Shown: one piece after another, positions 2-54,969 of the stretch
Layout of the letters: each line of letters starts with the position of its first letter
How positions within the stretch are numbered: position 1 is the stretch's first letter
Assembly (NCBI RefSeq): GCF_018729255.1
Contig: NZ_CP076060.1
Span: 930,001-994,000, forward strand
Reading direction: 5' to 3'
Length of the DNA: 64,000 nucleotides
Source of the DNA: Cupriavidus sp. EM10
Lineage (GTDB): Bacteria > Pseudomonadota > Gammaproteobacteria > Burkholderiales > Burkholderiaceae
The notes under the pieces: model-generated
What the model was told of the DNA's origin: nothing
What the model saw: the letters and a program-made list of their open reading frames with translations, nothing else
The model's database searches: none
Made by a program: the position numbers and the translations under genes

Positions 2-799
2 CTACGGGCGCGTTTCGTTCTGATTGAAGTCAGTGGCCGCTTCGCCCGTCACGGGCGGCGACAGGGTCGGTGCCTGGGCAGGCGTGGCCGGTACTGCAGC
101 AGTCGGCGCGGCGGGCGCGGGTGCCGGTGCAACCGGCGCGGTCGCTGCCGAAGCTCCCGCCAGGGCCGGAGCCGGCGGCGCGGAAGCCGGGGCAGCTTCG
201 GGCGCGCTGGCCGGCTTGCCCTGATGATGGATCTGGCGGCCCGTATCGGCCGGCGGACGCTTGCCCGAAGGCAATGCGCTTACCGCACCGGGACGGCGCG
301 GCACCTTTTCGGCGGCGGCCAGCTTCTTCTTCTGCTCTTCAGGCAACTGCTGGTAGCGGTCCCACGCCTCGGCTTTCTTCTCCGCCGGCAGCTGGCGCGT
401 GATCTGGTAGTTCTCGCGTGCCAGGCGGCGCTGCTGCGGCGTCATCCTGACCCATTCGGCCATCCGTTGCTGCAGGCGCTGCTGCTCTTCGGGCTTGAGG
501 GTTGGGTACAGGTCGGCAATGCGCTGCCACTTGCGGCGATTCAGTTCGGGAATCGTCTCCCACAGCGGCTGCAGCGGCGCCAGGATCTGGCGATGCGTGG
601 CGGACAGTTCCTGCCAGGTCGGGTGGGCGTTGAGGATGGGACGCGCCGCCGGCTGACTGGCGGACTGCGCCTGCGCACCCTGGGCATGGGCGCCATCCAT
701 CACTACGTCGACGAAAAGTGCAGCCAGGGTCGCGCCGGCGGCGCAAAGTGCGGCGAGCCGGCGACGGAATGCGTCGGTACGGGAAGTCGTGCGGGCCAT
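2..799 (-). CDS. DUF3106 domain-containing secreted protein
   Basis: A 265-residue protein of unknown function. It has an N-terminal hydrophobic signal-like stretch (about residues 13-40, ending in AHAQ). A charged helical core follows (about 57-165) with repeated Trp/Arg/Gln/Glu-rich motifs such as WQRIADLYPTLKPEEQQRLQ and MTPQQRRLARENY, typical of the DUF3106 family. The C-terminal third (about 190-260) is a low-complexity Ala/Pro tail that looks disordered. It begins one base after the upstream DUF3619 gene ends and is the third gene of a sigma factor operon. A periplasmic role, perhaps sensing or stress-related, is only inferred from context. The stop codon lies at the very edge of the window, so the gene is complete. 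Confidence 0.8.
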   Translation of the reverse strand: MARTTSRTDAFRRRLAALCAAGATLAALFVDVVMDGAHAQGAQAQSASQPAARPILNAHPTWQELSATHRQILAPLQPLWETIPELNRRKWQRIADLYPTLKPEEQQRLQQRMAEWVRMTPQQRRLARENYQITRQLPAEKKAEAWDRYQQLPEEQKKKLAAAEKVPRRPGAVSALPSGKRPPADTGRQIHHQGKPASAPEAAPASAPPAPALAGASAATAPVAPAPAPAAPTAAVPATPAQAPTLSPPVTGEAATDFNQNETRP

Positions 800-1243
800 C
801 TATTGGTCGCGGTCCCGCTTCAGGAACACGTGGAAGCCCTGGTCGGCGTATGCCGTCGGGGGCAGGTCATCGAGCAGCATCGCCGCGTCGACATCGGCCA
901 GTTCCTCGACGCGCTTCTGCTGCTGCCAGTGGTAGATGCCCATCAGGCCGGCACCCAGCGCGACCAGCGTCCACACCAGCGCCAGCTTGCGCAGCCATGC
1001 ACCGGCACGGTGCAAAGGGGTGTCGTCCTCGTCGTCGAAGGCAAAGCCGTGCGGTGCGTTCGGCAGCGTGAGCTGCGGCACGTGAGCGCGTACTTCGGCC
1101 TTCTTCGCGGCCAGCGCCATGCGCCGCGCGGCGGTCAGCCGTTCGGAAATGTCCTGCGGCAGCGCCTCCGCGGAGGCATCGAGTGCCACCCGGATCTCAT
1201 GGGCGAAGCGCCGTTCCTGGATATCTCGTTCGTTTCTGCTCAT
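800..1243 (-). CDS. DUF3619 family membrane protein, candidate anti-sigma factor
   Basis: A 147-residue protein with a soluble N-terminal part rich in Arg/Ala (1-85), one predicted transmembrane helix (about 87-106, LALVWTLVALGAGLMGIYHW) and a short C-terminal part of about 40 residues. The topology, with a cytoplasmic N-terminus and one membrane span, is that of many anti-sigma factors, but no zinc anti-sigma motif is visible. Its start overlaps the end of the sigma factor gene by four bases, so translation is probably coupled. The family assignment to DUF3619 is from recognition; the anti-sigma role is inference from coupling and topology. Confidence 0.75.
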   Translation of the reverse strand: MSRNERDIQERRFAHEIRVALDASAEALPQDISERLTAARRMALAAKKAEVRAHVPQLTLPNAPHGFAFDDEDDTPLHRAGAWLRKLALVWTLVALGAGLMGIYHWQQQKRVEELADVDAAMLLDDLPPTAYADQGFHVFLKRDRDQ

Positions 1244-1806
1244 AGTCGGACTCCCCGCGCACGCAACGCTTGCGCCAGCGTATGCGTGGCGCGGGAACAG
1301 TGCGTCTTGACGCTGCCTTCCGAGCAGCCCATCACGGCTGCGGTTTCGGCTACGTCCATATCCTCCCAGTAACGCATCAGGAAAGCCTCGCGTTGACGCG
1401 TAGGCAACCGCTGGATTTCCTGTTCGATGATATGCATGACCTGTGCCCGCTCGACCTTGTCGGCGCTGCTTTCGGCCATTTCGGTGCCGCTTTCGGCCTC
1501 CAGCGTGTCGAGCAGGTCGCCGTCGTCGCCTTCGCGGTCGTCGCGCAGGTTCGAGAACAGCGTCACCCAGGTGTTCCGCACCTTCTGGCGCCGGAACCAG
1601 TCATGGATGGTGTTCTGCAGGATGCGCTGGAACAGGGGTGGCAACTCGTTGGCCCCCTTGTCGCCGTACTTTTCCGCCAGCTTGATCATGGCGTCCTGCA
1701 CGATGTCCAGCGCAGCTTCGTCGTCACGAACGGCGAACACGGCCTGCTTGAAGGCGCGGCGCTCGACGCTGGCGAGAAAGTCTGAGAGTTCCTTGTCGGT
1801 GGCCAT
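1240..1806 (-). CDS. RNA polymerase sigma factor, ECF (sigma-70 family)
   Basis: A 188-residue ECF sigma factor with only regions 2 and 4. Region 2 (about residues 10-85) contains the core-binding helix with the motif DIVQDAMIKLAEKY. Region 4 (about 125-185) has LPTRQREAFLMRYWEDMDV followed by the helix-turn-helix AVMGCSEGSVKTHCSRA. Between them is an acidic linker of about 35 residues. The length is normal for the family. It is the first gene of a three-gene minus-strand operon with DUF3619 and DUF3106. It would direct core RNA polymerase to a small regulon, probably including its own operon; I could not identify a matching promoter by eye. The ECF assignment is firm, the stimulus unknown. 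Confidence 0.9.
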   Translation of the reverse strand: MATDKELSDFLASVERRAFKQAVFAVRDDEAALDIVQDAMIKLAEKYGDKGANELPPLFQRILQNTIHDWFRRQKVRNTWVTLFSNLRDDREGDDGDLLDTLEAESGTEMAESSADKVERAQVMHIIEQEIQRLPTRQREAFLMRYWEDMDVAETAAVMGCSEGSVKTHCSRATHTLAQALRARGVRL

Positions 1807-2020
1807 GCAGGCAAAAACAGCAGTTGGGCACTCAGGCCAGGCCGATATGTGCCGGACTCGTCCTGTGGCACCCCGGAATTGTCTGCGATGCTAGCAAAAA
1901 ACAGCCGCATTCTGCCACTCCTGTATTCAAGTGCAGACATGCTGGCTTCCCAACGCAACCCGCGATTGTCGCGCGTTTGCCCTATGCCGGTGCGGCCGTG
2001 CAAAAAGTTCCGTCCACACA

Positions 2021-2049
2021 TTTACCGCGCTGGTGCGATGCAGTATCAT
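2021..2049 (+). promoter_or_regulatory. Candidate sigma-70 promoter for ilvB
   Basis: TTTACC (2021-2026) and TATCAT (2044-2049) are separated by 17 bases and resemble -35 and -10 elements. Transcription would start near 2056. The match is moderate, and this promoter is incompatible with translation of the possible valine-rich leader that starts at 2038. Confidence 0.3.
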
Positions 2050-2081
2050 CGTCGGTTCACGACATCAGTGGTTGTCTCATC

Positions 2082-2102
2082 AGACCGCTTATAAGGCGGT
2101 CT
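2082..2102 (+). promoter_or_regulatory. Hairpin in the ilvB leader
   Basis: AGACCGC (2082-2088) and GCGGTCT (2096-2102) form a perfect 7-bp stem around a 7-base loop, 90 bases before the ilvB start. It is not followed by a real T-run, so termination is not obvious. It overlaps the stop codon of the short valine-rich frame at 2038-2094. Confidence 0.35.
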
Positions 2103-2192
2103 CTTCATGCAGACGCGCACCGCTTGAACCCGAGCCACAAGCCCGGCAGAGAGCATCCAAACAATTTTTGCCGAAAATTGCAAAGGACAGAA

Positions 2193-3955
2193 ATGAACAT
2201 GCCCAGCGCGGAATTCTCCCACGCAGACAGCAATTCATCCTCCGCTCGCGAAATGATCGGAGCGGAAATCCTCGTCAACGCACTTGCCGAAGAAGGCGTC
2301 GAGTACGTCTGGGGCTACCCCGGCGGCGCAGTGCTCTATATCTACGACGAGCTCCACAAGCAAACGAAATTCGAACACATCCTGGTGCGCCACGAGCAGG
2401 CCGCCGTGCATGCCGCTGACGGCTATGCCCGCGCGACCGGCAAGGTGGGCGTGGCACTGGTGACTTCGGGCCCGGGCGTGACCAACGCCGTGACCGGCAT
2501 CGCCACCGCCTATCTGGATTCGATCCCGATGGTGGTGATCACCGGCAACGTGCCGACCCACGCCATTGGCCAGGATGCGTTCCAGGAATGCGACACCGTC
2601 GGCATCACGCGCCCGATCGTCAAGCACAACTTCCTCGTGAAGGACGTGCGCGACCTGGCCGCGACGATCAAGAAGGCGTTCTTCATTGCCGCCACCGGCC
2701 GTCCCGGCCCCGTGGTGGTCGATATCCCGAAGGACGTGTCGCGCAACGCCTGCAAGTTCGAATACCCGAAGGCCGTCGACATGCGGTCGTACAACCCGGT
2801 GAACAAGGGTCACTCGGGCCAGATCCGCAAGGCCGTGGCGCTGCTGCAAGGCGCGGAGCGTCCATACATCTATTCGGGCGGCGGCGTGGTGCTGGCGAAC
2901 GCCAGCGACGAGCTGCGCGAGCTGGCCGCGCTGACCGGCCATCCGGTGACCAACACGCTGATGGGCCTGGGCGCGTTCCCGGGCACGCACAAGCAGTTCG
3001 TCGGCATGCTCGGCATGCACGGCACGTATGAAGCCAACATGGCCATGCAGAACTGCGACGTGCTGATCGCCGTGGGCGCCCGCTTCGACGACCGCGTGAT
3101 CGGCAACCCTTCGCACTTCACGTCGCAGGCGCGCAAGATCATCCATATCGACATCGACCCGTCCTCGATCTCGAAGCGCGTCAAGGTGGATATCCCCATC
3201 GTCGGCAACGTCAAGGACGTGCTGCAGGAACTGATCGCCCAGATCAAGGCCAGCGACGTCAAGCCCAAGCGCGAGGCCCTGGCCAGGTGGTGGGACCAGA
3301 TCGAGCAATGGCGTTCGGTGGACTGCCTGAAGTACGACCGCAGCTCCGAGATCATCAAGCCGCAGTACGTGGTGGAAAAGATCTGGGAACTGACCAAGGG
3401 CGATGCGTTCATCTGCTCCGACGTCGGCCAGCACCAGATGTGGGCCGCGCAGTTCTACAAGTTCGACGAGCCGCGCCGCTGGATCAACTCCGGCGGCCTG
3501 GGCACGATGGGCGTGGGCCTGCCGTACGCCATGGGCATCAAGAAGGCGTTTCCGGACAAGGAAGTCGTCACCATCACCGGTGAAGGCTCGATCCAGATGT
3601 GCATCCAGGAACTGTCGACCTGCCTGCAGTACGACACCCCGGTGAAGATCTGCTCGCTGAACAACGGCTACCTGGGCATGGTGCGCCAGTGGCAGGAAAT
3701 CGAGTACGACAACCGCTACTCGCATTCCTACATGCAGGCACTGCCCGACTTCGTGAAGCTGGCCGAATCGTATGGCCACGTGGGCATGCGCATCGAGAAG
3801 TCGTCCGATGTCGAGCCGGCCCTGCGCGAAGCATTCCGCCTGAAGGACCGCACCGTGTTCCTGGACTTCCAGACCGACCCCACCGAAAACGTGTGGCCGA
3901 TGGTCCAGGCTGGCAAGGGTATCTCCGAAATGCTGCTCGGCGCGGAGGACCTGTA

Positions 3956-3956
<1 letters not shown>
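2193..3956 (+). CDS. ilvB: Acetolactate synthase, large catalytic subunit
   Basis: 587 residues. It condenses two pyruvates to 2-acetolactate, or pyruvate with 2-ketobutyrate, the first common step of Val/Leu/Ile synthesis, using thiamine diphosphate and FAD. The N-terminal TPP-binding domain (about 22-190) carries the catalytic Glu68 in HEQAAVHAADGYARA. The central FAD domain covers about 215-350. The C-terminal TPP domain holds the metal/diphosphate motif near 463 and ends in NNGYLGMVRQWQ. That motif reads GEG instead of the more usual GDG. I chose the ATG at 2193, just after AAAGGACAG; an upstream in-frame extension has no family match. The stop overlaps the ilvN start by one base, so the two subunits are translationally coupled. 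It is the Burkholderiales form, sometimes named ilvI. Confidence 0.95.
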
Positions 3957-5597
<1,641 letters not shown>

Positions 5598-5656
5598 GCA
5601 GTACGGGCAGGAGCGGGGCACCGGCCGATGCGGCCTGGTGACCCGCCAGCGCCGCC

Positions 5657-5724
5657 GCCGTCCAGTCGGCCGCCGGTCTTTTGCGTTTGCAGAAGACATT
5701 TCGGCGGTGACTGGGCGGCTTTTT
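5657..5724 (+). terminator. Intrinsic terminator after ilvC (first)
   Basis: GCCGTCCAGTC (5657-5667) pairs with GACTGGGCGGC (5709-5719), an 11-bp stem with one G-U pair, and is followed by TTTTT. The long loop contains inner stems, including GTCTT with AAGAC. Confidence 0.6.
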
Positions 5725-5743
5725 GTTATCCTTGTCGGACTTT

Positions 5744-5765
5744 TCAGGCGCTGGCCTGATTTTTT
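5744..5765 (+). terminator. Intrinsic terminator after ilvC (second)
   Basis: TCAGGC (5744-5749), loop GCTG, GCCTGA (5754-5759), followed by six T. It lies 25 bases after the first terminator. Together they should insulate psd-pssA from ilvBNC. Confidence 0.75.
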
Positions 5766-5871
5766 CTTATTTCTCGCGCCGACATATCCTGAATGCGTGG
5801 CACGCGGTACGCTGCGGGCTGGCATGCCGACAGGGTTGCAGACTCTGCGCGAACAACAGAACAACGCTTGC

Positions 5872-6525
5872 ATGAACTATCCTCATCCGCTTATCGCCCG
5901 TGAAGGCTGGCCGTTCCTGGCCGGCGCTTTCATCATCTCGCTGCTGGTGCATGTCAGCGCGGGCTTCTGGTGGGCGTTGCCGTTGTGGATCATCACGATC
6001 TTCGTGCTGCAGTTCTTCCGCGATCCGCCGCGGCCGATTCCGTCGGCGCCGAATGCGATCCTGGCCCCGGCCGATGGTCGCATCGTGGTGGTCGAGAAGA
6101 CGCTGGACCCCTATGCGGGCCGCGAGGCGCTGAAGATCAGCGTGTTCATGAACGTGTTCAACGTACATTCGAACCGTGCCTCGCTGGATGGCAAGGTCGA
6201 GAAACTCGAATATTTCCCGGGCAAGTTCGTCAACGCGGACCTGGACAAGGCATCGCTGGAAAACGAGCGCAACGCGGTGGTGATCCGCCGTGCGGCCGAT
6301 GGCCAGGTAGTGACGCTGGTGCAGGTGGCCGGCCTGGTGGCTCGCCGTATCCTGTGCTACACCAAGGTGGGCGATACGTTGTCGCGCGGCCAGCGCTACG
6401 GTTTCATCCGTTTCGGCTCGCGCGTCGACGTGTACCTGCCCGTGGATGCCCGTCCGCGCGTGACGATCGGCGAGAAGGTGTCGGCGTCGTCGACCGTGCT
6501 CGCCGAGCTGGACGTCCAGGCCTGA
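5872..6525 (+). CDS. psd: Phosphatidylserine decarboxylase proenzyme, short form
   Basis: 217 residues. It decarboxylates phosphatidylserine to phosphatidylethanolamine at the inner membrane. An N-terminal hydrophobic segment (about 14-45) anchors it. The proenzyme should cut itself at Gly182-Ser183 in RFGSR, where the serine becomes the pyruvoyl cofactor. This gives a beta chain of about 182 residues and an alpha chain of about 35. The length matches the short (about 214-residue) form. I chose the ATG at 5872 ([13 protein letters not shown]); the upstream in-frame extension crosses both ilvC terminators and has no family match. It is followed by pssA after 31 bases, so consecutive enzymes of the PE pathway are neighbours. 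Confidence 0.93.
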
Positions 6526-6556
6526 GGCCGGACCGGTCAGCGAGAGGAGACACGGC

Positions 6557-7453
6557 ATGGGTGCCTTCAACCGACGCAACAAGCGTGTGAGCAACGGGAA
6601 TGTGACGCACCTGCGTCCGTTCCGCCATAACCAGCTACGCAACGACGCCGCCTACGAGGCCGACGAGCACGACATCGAGTACGTGCGTCCGCGCCGGCGC
6701 GGCATCTACCTGCTGCCCAACGCGTTCACCACGGCGGCGCTGTTCGCGGGGTTCTTCGCCATCGTGCAGGCCATGAACATGCGTTTCGACGTGGCGGCCA
6801 TCGCCATCTTCGCGGCCATGGTGCTCGACGGCATGGACGGCCGCGTGGCGCGCATCACCAATACGCAGAGCGCGTTCGGCGAGCAGTACGATTCGCTGTC
6901 GGACATGACGTCGTTCGGCGTGGCGCCGGCGCTGGTGATGTACGAGTGGATCCTGCACGACCTGGGCAAGTGGGGCTGGATTGCGGCATTCGTCTATTGC
7001 ACCTGCGCGGCGCTGCGGCTGGCGCGCTTCAATGCCAATATCGGCGTGGTCGACAAGCGCTTCTTCCAGGGCCTGCCGAGCCCGGCCGCGGCCGCGCTGG
7101 TGGCCGGCTTTGTCTGGCTGGCCATCGACAACAAGCTGCCCGTGAAGGAGCTGTGGATGCCGTGGGTCGCCTTTGCGATCACGCTCTATGCGGGCCTGTC
7201 GATGGTATCGAACGCGCCGTTCTACAGTGGCAAGGCACTGGACGTTCGTTACCGCGTGCCGTTCGGCATGATGGTGCTGGTTTTGGTGCTGTTCGTGATC
7301 GTGTCGTCGGATCCGCCCGTCGCGCTGTTCGGTCTGTTCGTGGCCTACGCGATATCGGGATACCTGCTGTGGGGCTGGCGTGCGGTGCATGGCCAGCCGG
7401 CCGGGGTGGCCAAGGCGCGTGCCGGCGGCAACGGCGCGGGCAGCGGCAGCTGA
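6557..7453 (+). CDS. pssA: CDP-diacylglycerol-serine O-phosphatidyltransferase
   Basis: 298 residues. This integral membrane enzyme makes phosphatidylserine from CDP-diacylglycerol and serine and feeds the psd product just upstream. It shows the CDP-alcohol phosphatidyltransferase signature DGx2ARx8Gx3Dx3D, from Asp94 (DGRVARITNTQSAFGEQYD). Several membrane helices follow, for example near 128-150, 160-200 and 225-260. The N-terminal 45 residues are charged and soluble. A GAGAGGAGA ribosome binding site lies a few bases before the ATG. A terminator follows closely. Confidence 0.95.
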   Translation: MGAFNRRNKRVSNGNVTHLRPFRHNQLRNDAAYEADEHDIEYVRPRRRGIYLLPNAFTTAALFAGFFAIVQAMNMRFDVAAIAIFAAMVLDGMDGRVARITNTQSAFGEQYDSLSDMTSFGVAPALVMYEWILHDLGKWGWIAAFVYCTCAALRLARFNANIGVVDKRFFQGLPSPAAAALVAGFVWLAIDNKLPVKELWMPWVAFAITLYAGLSMVSNAPFYSGKALDVRYRVPFGMMVLVLVLFVIVSSDPPVALFGLFVAYAISGYLLWGWRAVHGQPAGVAKARAGGNGAGSGS

Positions 7454-7467
7454 CCAGTTCTTGAAAG

Positions 7468-7497
7468 AAGGGCGCTCATGGGGCGCCCTTTGTTTTT
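7468..7497 (+). terminator. Intrinsic terminator after pssA
   Basis: AAGGGCGC (7468-7475) pairs with GCGCCCTT (7483-7490), followed by TGTTTTTT. It sits between pssA and the BON-LysM gene. Confidence 0.8.
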
Positions 7498-7523
7498 TCG
7501 TTCCACAACCTCAGGAGAATGTC

Positions 7524-8027
7524 ATGGGCATGTTCGACTTCATCAAGGAAGCGGGAGAGAAACTGTTCGGCAAGGGCGAGGCGAAAGCGGCGCAGGAAGC
7601 CGCCGCTGCCGACCCGTCCGCGAATGACAAGGCCGAGGCGGCCAACCGCGCGGCTGGCGATGCCATCGAGGCCTATATCGCCCAGATGGGACTGTCCGCC
7701 ACCGGCCTGACCGTGACCGTGGACGGCTCGCAGGGCAAGGTCACCGTGTTCGGCGTGGCGCCCGACCAGGCCACGCGCGAGAAGATCATCCTTTGCTGCG
7801 GCAATGTGGAGGGCGTGGATTCGGTCGAGGACAAGATGTCGGTCAACGTGGAGACGGCCGAATCGCAGTGGCACACCGTGGTGAAGGGTGACACGCTCTG
7901 GGCGATTTCCCAGGCCGCGTACGGCAATGGCGCCGAGTACAACAAGATCTTCGAGGCCAACAAGCCGATGCTGACGCACCCGGACAAGATCTACCCGGGG
8001 CAAAAACTGCGCATTCCTCCGAAATAA
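7524..8027 (+). CDS. kbp: BON and LysM domain protein (Kbp/YgaU-like)
   Basis: 167 residues. The N-terminal part (about 1-45) is a helical Ala/Lys/Glu-rich segment starting MGMFDFIKEAGEKLFG. A BON domain follows (about 48-108, with GLTVTVDGSQGKVTVFGVAPD), then a C-terminal LysM domain (about 118-165, WHTVVKGDTLWAISQAAYGN through YPGQKLRIP). This order matches the E. coli potassium-binding protein Kbp (YgaU), which is cytoplasmic and binds K+; no signal peptide is visible here. The ATG at 7524 follows a good AGGAGAA site. It is slightly longer than the E. coli protein (149 residues). It sits between the pssA terminator and the leuA promoter, so it is probably transcribed on its own. Confidence 0.85.
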   Translation: MGMFDFIKEAGEKLFGKGEAKAAQEAAAADPSANDKAEAANRAAGDAIEAYIAQMGLSATGLTVTVDGSQGKVTVFGVAPDQATREKIILCCGNVEGVDSVEDKMSVNVETAESQWHTVVKGDTLWAISQAAYGNGAEYNKIFEANKPMLTHPDKIYPGQKLRIPPK

Positions 8028-8032
8028 CCCGG

Positions 8033-8061
8033 TTGCGCACCCGCAGCAAACCGGCTATAGT
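8033..8061 (+). promoter_or_regulatory. Candidate sigma-70 promoter for the leuA leader
   Basis: TTGCGC (8033-8038) and TATAGT (8056-8061) are separated by 17 bases. Transcription would start at about 8068-8069, which is the A of the leader peptide ATG. The leader mRNA may therefore have almost no 5' untranslated region. No Shine-Dalgarno sequence precedes the ATG, in agreement. Confidence 0.55.
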
Positions 8062-8068
8062 CGCCCAC

Positions 8069-8149
8069 ATGATTTCGCACCAGACCCTAATCGCCCGCAC
8101 CACCCTAGGTGGCCTACTAGGCCATCAGGTCGGGACGCGCGCGCGCTAA
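8069..8149 (+). CDS. leuL: leuA leader peptide (leucine attenuator)
   Basis: A 26-codon reading frame from ATG 8069 to TAA 8147-8149. It contains four leucines, all encoded by CTA (8087, 8105, 8114 and 8117), the last two adjacent. CTA is a very rare codon in this GC-rich genome: the neighbouring leu and ilv genes use CTG or CTC almost exclusively. It precedes an intrinsic terminator (8193-8232) and leuA, the layout of classical transcription attenuation. Stalling at CTA when charged leucyl-tRNA is scarce should prevent terminator formation. The CTA codons lie inside overlapping inverted repeats: CCACC-CTA-GGTGG (8100-8112) and GGCCTA-C-TAGGCC (8111-8123). The start has no ribosome binding site and may be leaderless. 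Confidence 0.65.
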   Translation: MISHQTLIARTTLGGLLGHQVGTRAR

Positions 8150-8192
8150 GGGACTCGGATTACCGCCCTGGCGCGGAAATCACCAGGATTTG

Positions 8193-8236
8193 AAAACGCC
8201 CCGGCCTGCATTCATGCACGCCGGGGCGTTTTGCAT
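8193..8236 (+). terminator. leuA attenuator terminator
   Basis: AAAACGCCCCGG (8193-8204) and CCGGGGCGTTTT (8221-8232) form a perfect 12-bp stem. The loop contains a further TGCAT/ATGCA pairing. The 3' arm itself supplies the T-run. It lies between the CTA-rich leader and leuA, 80 bases before the leuA start, and is the expected regulated terminator. Confidence 0.8.
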
Positions 8237-8312
8237 TCCGATCCGAATGCCCGGTGTCGTGATAGCGGGACGGCGGACAAGTACATAAGGCACAGCCCAG
8301 GAGCTCCACAAA

Positions 8313-9854
8313 ATGTCTGACAAACTCATCATTTTCGACACCACCTTGCGCGATGGCGAGCAGTCGCCCGGTGCGTCCATGACTCGCGAGGAGAAGATCC
8401 GCATTGCGCGTCAGCTGGAACGCCTGAAGGTCGATGTGATCGAGGCCGGCTTTGCCGCCAGCTCCAATGGCGATTTCGAAGCGATTCGCTCGATTGCCCA
8501 GGTGGTTAAGGATTCGACGATCTGCTCCCTGGCCCGGGCCAACGACAAGGACATCGCACGCGCGGCCGAGGCGCTGAAGCCCGCCAACTCGTTCCGTATT
8601 CACACGTTCATCGCCACGTCTGCGCTGCATATGGAGAAGAAGCTCCGCATGACGCCGGATCAGGTCTACGAACAGGCACGCCTGGCGGTACGCTTCGCGC
8701 GCCAGTTCACGGACGACATCGAGTTCTCGCCCGAAGACGGCAGCCGCTCGGACATGGACTTCCTGTGCCGCGTGCTCGAAGGCGTGATCGCCGAGGGCGC
8801 GACCACGATCAACCTGCCCGATACCGTGGGCTACGCCGTGCCGGAAGGCTATGCGGAGTTGATCCGGTCGGTGCGCGAGCGCATTCCGAACTCGGACAAG
8901 GCCGTCTGGTCGGTGCATTGCCATAACGACCTGGGCATGGCCGTGGCGAACTCGCTGGCCGCGGTGAAGCTGGGTGGCGCCCGCCAGATCGAATGCACGA
9001 TCAACGGCCTGGGCGAACGCGCCGGCAATACGAGCCTGGAAGAGGTGGTGATGGCCGTGAAGACGCGCCGCGACTACTTCAACATGGACGTGGGCATCGA
9101 TACCACGCAGATCGTGCCGGCATCGAAGCTCGTGTCGCAGGTCACCGGTTTCGTGGTGCAGCCGAACAAGGCCGTGGTGGGCGCCAACGCGTTTGCCCAC
9201 GCCTCGGGCATCCACCAGGATGGCGTGCTCAAGGCGCGCGATACCTACGAGATCATGCGCGCGGAAGATGTGGGCTGGACCGCCAACAAGATCGTGCTGG
9301 GCAAGCTCTCGGGCCGCAATGCATTCAAGCAGCGCCTGCAGGAACTGGGCATCGAGCTGGAAAGCGAAGCCGAGGTCAATGCCGCGTTTGCCCGCTTCAA
9401 GGAGCTGGCCGACCAGAAGGCCGAGATCTTCGACGAAGACATCCTGGCGATCGTTTCCGATGAAGAGCAGGAAAACGCCAACGAGCACTATCGCTTCGTG
9501 TCGCTGTCGCAGCGCTCGGAAACCGGCGAGCGTCCGCACGCCCGCGTGGTGTTCAATATCGATGGCGCCGAGCAGGCGGGCGAGGCCGAAGGCAATGGCC
9601 CGGTGGATGCCACGCTGCACGCCATCGAAGGCCGTGTGAACAGCGGCGCCGAGCTGGTGCTGTACTCGGTGAACGCCATCACGGCCGGTACGCAGGCCCA
9701 GGGCGAAGTGACCGTGCGCCTGTCCAAGGCTGGCCGCATCGTCAACGGCGTGGGTACCGATCCGGACATCGTCGCCGCCTCGGCCAAGGCCTATCTGGCC
9801 GCACTGAACAAGCTGCACGACAAGGCCGTGCAGAAGATCAATCCGCAGATCTGA
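8313..9854 (+). CDS. leuA: 2-isopropylmalate synthase
   Basis: 513 residues. It condenses acetyl-CoA with 2-ketoisovalerate, the committed step of leucine synthesis. The N-terminal TIM-barrel (about 5-270) starts with [16 protein letters not shown] and has the metal-binding [14 protein letters not shown] linker region contains [17 protein letters not shown]. The C-terminal domain (about 390-513) is the leucine-binding allosteric domain. The start follows CAGGAGCTCCAC. Two controls are visible or expected: the CTA attenuator upstream (seen) and feedback inhibition by leucine (known of the family). The substrate 2-ketoisovalerate comes from the IlvBNC products encoded just upstream. Confidence 0.96.
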
Positions 9855-53251: not shown

Positions 53252-54969
53252 TGAGCGTGAAGATTTCGCGGCAGGCCTATGCCGAGATGTTCGGCCCCAC
53301 TACGGGCGACCGCCTGCGGCTGGCCGATACCGGCCTGGTCATCGAGGTGGAAAAGGACTTCACGATCTACGGCGAGGAGGTCAAGTTCGGCGGCGGCAAG
53401 GTGATTCGAGATGGCATGGGCCAGAGCCAGCGCATGTCGAAGGACTGCGTCGACACGGTCATCACGAACGCGCTGATCGTTGACCACTGGGGCATCGTCA
53501 AGGCCGACATCGGCCTGAAGCACGGCCGCGTCGCGGGCATCGGCAAGGCCGGCAACCCCGACATCCAGCCCGGCGTGACCATCGTGGTGGGCCCCGGCAC
53601 CGAAGTGATCGCGGGCGAGGGCATGATTGTCACGGCCGGCGGCATCGACACGCACATCCACTTCATCTGCCCGCAGCAGATCGACGAGGCGCTGATGAGC
53701 GGCGTGACCACGATGATCGGCGGCGGCACTGGCCCGGCCACCGGCACCTACGCCACCACGGTCACGCCCGGCCCCTGGTACATGGAGCGCATGCTGCAGG
53801 CCGCCGATGCCTACCCGATGAACATCGGCTTCCTGGGCAAGGGCAACGCCAGCCAGCCGGCGCCGCTGGCCGAGCAGGTGGAGGCCGGCGCCATCGGCCT
53901 GAAGCTGCACGAGGACTGGGGCACCACGCCGCAGGCCATCGACACCTGCCTGTCGGTGGCGGACGACACCGATACCCAGGTGGCCATCCACACCGATACG
54001 CTCAACGAAGGCGGGTTCGTCGAGGCGACGATTGCCGCGTTCAAGGGCCGCACGATCCACACGTACCACACCGAAGGCGCGGGCGGCGGCCATGCGCCGG
54101 ACATCATCAAGGTGTGCGGGGAATCGAACGTGCTGCCGTCGTCGACCAACCCGACGCGGCCCTACACGGTGAACACGCTCGACGAGCACCTGGACATGCT
54201 GATGGTCTGCCATCACCTGGACCCGGCCATCGCCGAGGACATCGCCTTTGCCGAGTCGCGCATCCGGCGCGAGACCATCGCCGCCGAGGACATCCTGCAC
54301 GACCTGGGCGCGTTCTCGATGATCTCGAGCGATTCGCAGGCCATGGGCCGCGTGGGCGAGGTCATCATCCGCACCTGGCAGACCGCACACAAGATGGCCG
54401 CCCAGCGCGGCAAGCTGCCCGGCGATCCGCACGATGCACGCGGCGGACACGACAACTTCCGCGTGAAGCGCTATATCGCCAAGTACACGATCAATCCCGC
54501 GCTGACGCATGGCATTGCGCATGAGGTGGGTTCGATCGAGGTGGGAAAGTGGGCCGACCTGGTGCTGTGGAAGCCGGCGTTCTTCGGCGTGAAGCCGAGC
54601 CTGATCCTGAAGGGCGGCATGATCGCCGCGGCGGCCATGGGCGACCCCAATGCGTCGATCCCGACGCCGCAGCCGGTGCACTACCGGCACATGTTCGCAT
54701 CGGCCGGCGGCGCGCTGCCGAAGTCGTCGCTGACCTTTGTCTCGCAGGCGGCGCTGGCGGCCGACGTGGGCGGGCGCTACGGGCTGGCCAAGACGCTGGC
54801 CGCGGTGCGCGGATGCCGCACCGTCAGCAAGCGCGACATGGTGCACAATGACTGGCAGCCGCATGTCACGGTGGACCCCGAGACCTACCAGGTGGTGGCC
54901 GACGGCCAGTTGCTGATGTGCGAGCCCGCCACCGTGCTGCCGATGGCGCAGCGCTACTTCCTGTTCTGA
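53251..54969 (+). CDS. ureC: Urease alpha subunit (catalytic)
   Basis: 572 residues. It binds two Ni2+ via carbamylated Lys218 (GLKLHEDWG), His135 and His137 (DTHIHF), further His residues in the [13 protein letters not shown] region, and Asp near 361. The flap has Cys320 and catalytic His321 (MVCHHLD). The start ATG at 53251 overlaps the ureB TGA; a GTG three bases earlier is a weaker alternative. Length and motifs match the family. It is the enzyme that the whole urt-ure cluster serves. Confidence 0.98.

Follow-up and report, generated by a model that had tools for sequence, protein, structure and literature searches.

A probable leucine attenuator with a predicted leaderless leader peptide upstream of leuA in Cupriavidus and other Burkholderiales

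The gene leuA of Cupriavidus sp. EM10 is very probably preceded by a ribosome-mediated leucine transcription attenuator, the leader peptide of which would be translated from a leaderless message. The reading frame, its codon bias, the alternative RNA pairings, the promoter spacing and their conservation were obtained by computation, and from these we infer the end of the transcript, ribosome stalling, termination and the response to leucine. The window, i.e. the whole stretch of DNA analysed here, comprises 64,000 nt (NZ_CP076060.1, positions 930,001–994,000) of the 6.66-Mb genome. A preliminary description of the same DNA had proposed a leucine attenuator before leuA with a leader, CTA control codons and alternative 2:3 and 3:4 pairings, and at the level of computation this proposal holds.

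The protein encoded by leuA is the sole high-identity match in its own genome, with three further sequences being only 28–33% identical. Among the best 80 of 583 confirmed loci the closest LeuA (99% identical) is that of Cupriavidus sp. U2, very near records being perhaps excluded. Upstream of leuA a LysM-type gene ends at 8027 and farther upstream ilvB and ilvC are located, all these names having been read from translations. The features of the proposed attenuator are collected in Table 1.

Table 1. Features of the leuA upstream region (positions refer to the window)
Feature	Positions	Strand	Basis
−35 element TTGCGC	8033..8038	+	sequence; TTGC at −36 to −33 from ATG is the consensus of 39 dereplicated gap-7 leaders
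−10 element TATAGT, 7 nt before leader ATG	8056..8061	+	sequence, comparison
Predicted transcription start, C/A of ATG	8068..8069	+	spacing from −10; pyrimidine before ATG in relatives
Leader peptide ORF, 26 codons, without Shine–Dalgarno sequence	8069..8149	+	sequence, alignments
CTA codon 7	8087..8089	+	CTA in 5/10 aligned leaders
CTA codon 13	8105..8107	+	invariant, 10/10 aligned Cupriavidus leaders
Hairpin over tandem CTA codons, 1:2-type or pause hairpin	8109..8125	+	folding
Tandem CTA codons 16–17, likely stall site	8114..8119	+	invariant, 11/11 Cupriavidus/Ralstonia sequences
Segment 2, antiterminator 5' strand: CAGGTCGGG (8126–8134) and CGC (8137–8139)	8126..8139	+	folding; codons 21 and 22 invariant
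Intrinsic terminator-like hairpin, 13-bp stem, foot UUUU	8193..8232	+	folding; core arms invariant in 11 sequences
Segment 3, terminator 5' arm CGCCCCGGCCTG, common to terminator and antiterminator	8197..8208	+	folding, alignment
Shine–Dalgarno sequence AGGAG of leuA	8299..8303	+	sequence
leuA, 2-isopropylmalate synthase	8313..9854	+	name read from translation; gene proposed as regulated

Leader frame and alternative RNA folds in the window

The leader frame is translated as MISHQTLIARTTLGGLLGHQVGTRAR, with the stop codon starting at 8147. All four of its leucine codons (positions 7, 13, 16 and 17) are CTA; the preliminary description had reported this 26-codon frame with two adjacent leucine codons, and both its coordinates and codons were verified in the sequence. 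Its further statement that CTA is nearly unused in the surrounding genes proved correct, with 11 of 1609 leucine codons (0.68%) in the 47 long open reading frames of the window and none among the 35 that leuA contains. At such a frequency, four CTA out of four leucine codons would arise by chance with a probability of about 2e-9. A lack of conservation of these codons in relatives had been named as an argument against the proposal. In ten aligned 26-codon leaders from Cupriavidus/Ralstonia codons 13, 16 and 17 are CTA throughout, codon 7 is CTA in half of them, and the tandem pair extends unchanged to all eleven sequences. As in attenuators of the leu type, a short leader frame with tandem codons for the product thus stands before a biosynthetic gene.

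In the leaders of other clades the preference varies. CTA is the commonest leucine codon in Cupriavidus/Ralstonia (38 of 51), in Burkholderia sensu lato (67 of 135) and in the Comamonadaceae-like group (34 of 72), and CTG is the commonest in Oxalobacteraceae (28 of 52) and in the distant set (79 of 139). For Escherichia coli and Salmonella CTA has been discussed as the most suitable leu control codon (PMC1183508), and in Salmonella leu the change of CTA to CTG lowers the sensitivity (Carter et al. as cited in PMC1183508).

Between leader and leuA the hairpin at 8193–8232 has a perfect stem and an additional small inner stem (−30.1 kcal/mol). The terminator that had been described here is therefore present as a hairpin, its stem comprising 13 bp and not the 12 bp given before. 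It has the position of an intrinsic terminator with a short U-tract (UUUU only) and falls below the threshold of the mechanical terminator scan, which did not list it. The region 8068–8240 folds far better than shuffled sequences (z −6.2), with the terminator hairpin alone accounting for about −30 of −85 kcal/mol. Codons 16 and 17 are enclosed in a 7-bp hairpin at 8109–8125 (−9.3 kcal/mol), which is overlapped by the inverted repeat CCTAG/CTAGG at 8104–8121; these are the two overlapping inverted repeats in which the CTA codons had been said to lie.

The leader sequence CAGGTCGGG (8126–8134) is able to pair with the 5' arm of the terminator and, like a textbook antiterminator, is suitably spaced from the tandem CTA codons: counted from the first base of codon 17, segment 2 begins 9 nt downstream, and its end lies 8 nt upstream of the first base of the stop codon. 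Folding of the stalled state, in which the RNA extends from the edge of a ribosome halted at codon 16 or 17 to 8217 (i.e. to a point before the 3' arm of the terminator), yields a helix between CAGGUCGGG (8126–8134) and CCCGGCCUG (8200–8208) together with the pairing of CGC and GCG. This 2:3 helix is shortened with the ribosome edge at 8130 and gone at 8133, and a fold that begins at the edge of a ribosome on the stop codon contains the terminator. In the lowest-energy structure of the ribosome-free RNA an extended CTA-codon hairpin occupies part of segment 2 and there is no 2:3 helix. The suspected alternative pairings were both recovered, 2:3 in the stalled state and the terminator at full length. 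Since at full length the terminator is always part of the lowest-energy structure, antitermination must be kinetic, a race as in the classical attenuator model. The antiterminator overlaps the 5' arm of the terminator and would be exposed by a stall and masked at the stop codon; the energy of its duplex is not significant, as 16.7% of shuffles are equally good.

Codons 21 (GTC) and 22 (GGG) are invariant in the ten aligned Cupriavidus leaders. In the eleven Cupriavidus/Ralstonia sequences GGTCGGG and the terminator core with UUUU are invariant, though the spacer and the post-terminator region diverge. Rfam release 15 at gathering score left the leader region unmatched, and gave no match in the 20 scanned of 60 fetched stretches of the order; at E values up to 10 only weak, chance-level matches to the leader region appeared, most of them over the terminator hairpin.

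These elements suggest the following course of events. Transcription would begin with the A of the leader ATG, so that a 70S ribosome would load on the 5'-AUG as soon as it emerges, a mode of loading which is established for leaderless mRNAs elsewhere. With ample leucine the ribosome would reach the stop codon at 8147 and cover most of segment 2 (8126–8139), the terminator (8193–8232) would form and leuA would be off. If charged tRNA-Leu for CTA is scarce, the ribosome would stall at codons 16/17, and the free segment 2 could pair with the 5' arm of the terminator before its 3' arm is made, which would allow transcription of leuA. In the absence of any ribosome the extended CTA-codon hairpin would hold part of segment 2, and termination would occur by default.

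Promoter spacing and the predicted leaderless layout across Burkholderiales

The promoter TTGCGC-17-TATAGT of the window, for which a start at or within one base of the ATG had been postulated, was verified in the sequence; as the −10 element ends at 8061, +1 is predicted at about 8068/8069. By manual count it has 8 of 12 consensus positions and was not listed by the mechanical promoter scan with its threshold of 9/12. The layout TTGC-17-TATANT-6/7-ATG is found at only 4 sites in the complete 6.66-Mb genome, the reversed pattern at none. The other three sites are L243, L244 and L245; the open reading frames at L244 were examined and no clear leaderless gene was assigned.

A comparison was made with 141 leuA upstream regions, namely the window, the best 80 of the 583 confirmed loci and 60 regions chosen for family variety from 242 genomes with a match (300 searched). 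Leaders were called without regard to the promoter, by an ATG, leucine content, an adjacent leucine pair and room for a terminator, and a leucine-rich leader was called in 105 of the 141 regions. A −10 box (hexamer with at least 4/6 consensus positions including A2 and T6, 5–8 nt before the ATG) is found in 84 of these 105 leaders as compared with 4.2% of 425 other ATGs from the same regions; the gap is 7 nt in 50 hexamers and 6 nt in 30. A Shine–Dalgarno 4-mer precedes a single one of the 105 leaders versus 134 of 141 leuA starts. Dereplication at 85% leaves the −10 box in 69 of 89 leaders and the Shine–Dalgarno 4-mer in none. The absence of a Shine–Dalgarno sequence from the leader ATG, which the preliminary description had noted, hence applies to the window and to nearly all leaders of the order.

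Within 36 nt of the ATG, conservation among the 39 dereplicated gap-7 leaders exceeds 70% at TTGC (−36 to −33), at C −17, at all but one of the six −10 positions (−13 to −8) and at C −1, the latter in 36 of 39; no column between −7 and −2 reaches this level. TTG at a spacer of 16–18 occurs in 65 of 84 leaders versus 36 of 416 control ATGs. Only 12 of the 84 have a −35 hexamer reaching 4/6 to TTGACA (controls 7.7%). The base just before the ATG is a pyrimidine in 49 of 50 leaders with gap 7 and in 20 of 30 with gap 6, compared with 52% of the 416 controls. Conserved spacing together with a pyrimidine at −1 is the pattern of a promoter predicted to start at the A of the ATG. Of the two properties of a leaderless mRNA, the missing Shine–Dalgarno sequence is directly visible and the 5' AUG is predicted from the conserved distance between promoter and ATG. 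The leader peptide is predicted to be leaderless, and this reading, already put forward in the preliminary description, is strongly supported by the comparison, i.e. by the order-wide −10 box 6–7 nt before the ATG, the lack of a Shine–Dalgarno sequence and the pyrimidine before the A in gap-7 leaders.

The main competing view is a leadered attenuator, in which transcription starts farther upstream, for instance by read-through out of the gene that stops at 8027 or at a different promoter, and some unrecognised mechanism accounts for translation of the leader. Read-through is conceivable since between 8027 and the leader no terminator was seen by eye or listed by the mechanical scan; moreover the frame is open upstream, with an in-frame ATG, GTG or TTG within 150 nt in 62 of the 84 leaders. 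But a Shine–Dalgarno sequence accompanies an upstream in-frame ATG or GTG in only 2 of the 84, the leader ATG itself is without one in 104 of 105, and the conserved block in front of it is a promoter and not a ribosome binding site of the Shine–Dalgarno type. We therefore regard a leadered start as unlikely.

With respect to its distribution, at least one leader of the leaderless layout is present in 18 of the 30 coded families sampled. No leader was called in 36 of the 141 regions, among them three Collimonas, Duganella, Rugamonas, Mycetohabitans and an endosymbiont; nine further regions resemble by eye leaderless leucine leaders missed by the promoter-blind caller and are kept outside the statistics. 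In one Pandoraea and two Paraburkholderia regions (L012, L021 and L032) the spacing of promoter and ATG is retained and the reading frame is poor in leucine or very short; these are perhaps decaying attenuators. Leaderless transcripts make up 4.67% of the primary starts in Cupriavidus metallidurans (PMC7563307), and in Burkholderia cenocepacia 72 genes, tRNAs apparently included, have a start exactly at the annotated start (PMC4603805); leuA is absent from the main texts of both papers.

Downstream readout in other clades and occurrence beyond the order

The clade groups used here are our own and were formed by record title and likeness, with L065, titled Polynucleobacter, being placed with Oxalobacteraceae for its leader. 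Strong intrinsic terminators were found in three clades only, namely Cupriavidus/Ralstonia, the Comamonadaceae-like group and Polynucleobacter, the terminator script finding hairpins in 16 leaders of the second and 4 of the third. In most leaders of these latter two clades a possible segment 2 sits in the last leader codons. It is ACGGGC in His/Asn-Gly-Arg (or Gln, Pro) codons against GCCCGT in all Comamonadaceae-like leaders except L056, and CTTGGGGC against GCCCCAG in three Polynucleobacter leaders, a similar pair being found in L054. In the shuffle test the duplex of segment 2 and terminator arm reaches 5% or less in only 3 of 31 leaders, and the cross-clade energy matrix (29 of the 31; L054 and L056 omitted) is mixed and not diagonal: Cupriavidus segments prefer their own arms, and Comamonadaceae-like and Polynucleobacter segments pair with Cupriavidus arms about as well as with their own. 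A switch across clades is therefore based on position and conservation and not on energy. Covariation is not claimed from duplex energies.

The terminator script was also applied to Burkholderia (18 leaders), Oxalobacteraceae (7 leaders) and the distant set (18 leaders); it listed a hairpin for 15 of these 43, of which only one reaches −15 kcal/mol or lower. The stretch after the leader stop codon has at least twice as much C as G in 6 of 7 Oxalobacteraceae, 9 of 18 distant, 4 of 18 Burkholderia, 5 of 16 Comamonadaceae-like, 2 of 4 Polynucleobacter and 0 of 11 Cupriavidus/Ralstonia leaders. Any involvement of Rho is only a guess, since C-richness is also seen in the terminator-bearing Comamonadaceae-like and Polynucleobacter leaders.

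These data bear on a second alternative, according to which the leader controls leuA by Rho or at the level of translation and the hairpin in the window is merely a weak stop. The tail of only four U, the single stable hairpin among the 43 leaders and the C-rich stretches in Oxalobacteraceae and the distant set would suit such a mechanism. As a marker, C-richness is nevertheless unclean, being less frequent in Burkholderia than in the two clades with terminators just mentioned, and the Cupriavidus/Ralstonia sequences keep hairpin and UUUU unchanged in spite of diverging flanks and have no C-rich post-stop stretch. For the window we thus consider this alternative improbable in comparison with intrinsic attenuation. 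That a chance frame precedes an unrelated hairpin, its CTA codons being due to palindromes and not to leucine sensing, is hardly credible: codons 16/17 do lie within a palindrome and codon 13 within the overlapping CCTAG/CTAGG, and the leucine enrichment of the caller is not significant for the window frame alone (p 0.29), but leucine-rich leaders of quite different sequence occur at the same place before leuA across the order and at a fixed distance from the promoter.

Two further patterns were seen. In Burkholderia sensu lato (L014, L016, L017, L043, L086 and relatives) a common hairpin GCGTCGCC-AGC-GGTGGCGC without a U-tract lies between the leader end and leuA. As judged by eye, its 3' strand may alternatively pair with the final leader codons, which might represent a switch with a different readout. 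Among 17 leaders of other families (L097 to L141) many end in the common CTGCTGCGCC..CGCGCGC (LLR.AR) and continue into a stretch rich in pyrimidines, where Rho might enter.

The search was extended to the class, where 68 of 78 matching genomes were used and the 10 weakest omitted. Among 58 leaders called in other Gammaproteobacteria a −10 box at gap 5–8 is present in 24, as compared with 9.8% of 256 controls, and a Shine–Dalgarno sequence in 3. Several leaders there have a −10-like hexamer farther upstream, so that the promoter–ATG layout is not universal outside the order. In other classes the strict −10 rule, which requires A at position 2, was satisfied by 3 of 18 leaders (controls 8.1%), i.e. 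without a clear signal. In ten of those 18, TTGACC and T..AAT occur at matching positions, which is not a rate because these ten were chosen by eye and the start of L221 was moved to an internal ATG. We propose tentatively, and with slightly less than even confidence, that the leaderless sensor is the old and general design of leu attenuators throughout Betaproteobacteria and in much of the phylum, perhaps even beyond it with Streptomyces; the enteric leuL led by a Shine–Dalgarno sequence would then be derived, the leaderless start would have been kept for its tie between ribosome and polymerase, and the downstream readout would have been swapped several times.

Relation to known attenuators and further observations in the window

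In the textbook attenuator the ribosome loads at a Shine–Dalgarno site as the polymerase is held at a pause hairpin. Should the leader be leaderless throughout the order, ribosomes would have to load from the bare 5' end, which would make attenuation dependent on the initiation of 70S ribosomes on leaderless mRNA; these loci would then form a large natural set for testing the timing of leaderless initiation versus transcription. The leuL of E. coli and Salmonella operates by a terminator and an antiterminator, and resembles the window in having a leucine leader with CTA control codons before leuA. E. coli leuL, however, has a Shine–Dalgarno sequence and, by the rule used here, no −10 box within 30 nt of its ATG, whereas the leader of the window has no Shine–Dalgarno sequence and a −10 element 7 nt before the ATG. 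Comparative work by Vitreschak (2004) and Lopatovskaya (2010) reportedly may already predict leucine leaders in Betaproteobacteria. Among the papers listed in full-text searches of the literature, none was recognised as a description of a leaderless leu leader in Proteobacteria. As leaderless attenuator leaders are known from Corynebacterium ilvL, Sinorhizobium trpL and, closest, Streptomyces lividans leuA, the system described here is a conserved proteobacterial variant and not a new mechanism. For gene finders it is a warning that such leaders are easily missed, because they have no Shine–Dalgarno sequence.

The leuL1 of S. lividans TK24 is likewise a leucine leader before leuA and is leaderless there by mapped starts. 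It differs by its actinobacterial host and by the lack of a typical Rho-independent terminator (PMC8079986), the window having both terminator and antiterminator. For most Actinobacteria a pseudoknot LEU element has been reported before leuA (PMC1262725). In Corynebacterium glutamicum the leader of ilvL is one nucleotide away from the transcription start, has no ribosome binding site and is followed by a terminator and antiterminator, which was tested there by mutation (PMC11857589; Morbach 2000 as cited there); in contrast with the window it serves the branched-chain control of ilvBNC in an actinobacterium. This species also has a leuA leader with four leucine codons (PMC4046766), and a leaderless attenuator leader was described for ilvB of C. 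diphtheriae (PMC5784534). The attenuated transcript of Sinorhizobium meliloti (peTrpL/rnTrpL) begins with the ATG of the leader frame as predicted for the window (PMC7298713), but the control is by tryptophan and the organism is an alphaproteobacterium. Mycobacterial leaderless polycysteine attenuators (Canestrari 2020, title as cited in PMC9031893) are similar as short leaderless frames sensing an amino acid; they differ in belonging to cysteine operons, where candidate cys leaders lack obvious terminators (PMC1262725). LeuL of Campylobacter jejuni is a leucine leader before leuA with rare CUA/CUC/CUG codons, but, as it was found by a search for reading frames with a ribosome binding site, it is leadered, unlike that of the window (PMC3847290).

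Two other observations were made in the window. Upstream of ilvB (2038–2094 and 2083–2108) there are a short open reading frame with three consecutive valine codons (GTG GTT GTC) and a palindrome AGACCGC..GCGGTCT. This frame may not be a leader since a TATCAT box lies inside it; a scan for branched-chain leaders before ilvB in relatives gave no match and says little, as the anchor motif failed in 17 of 30 loci. On the minus strand at 53406–53687 a strong Rfam match (136 bits) to 5_ureB_sRNA is located, an RNA family antisense to ureB in Helicobacter; the match may simply reflect the conserved coding sequence of ureB.
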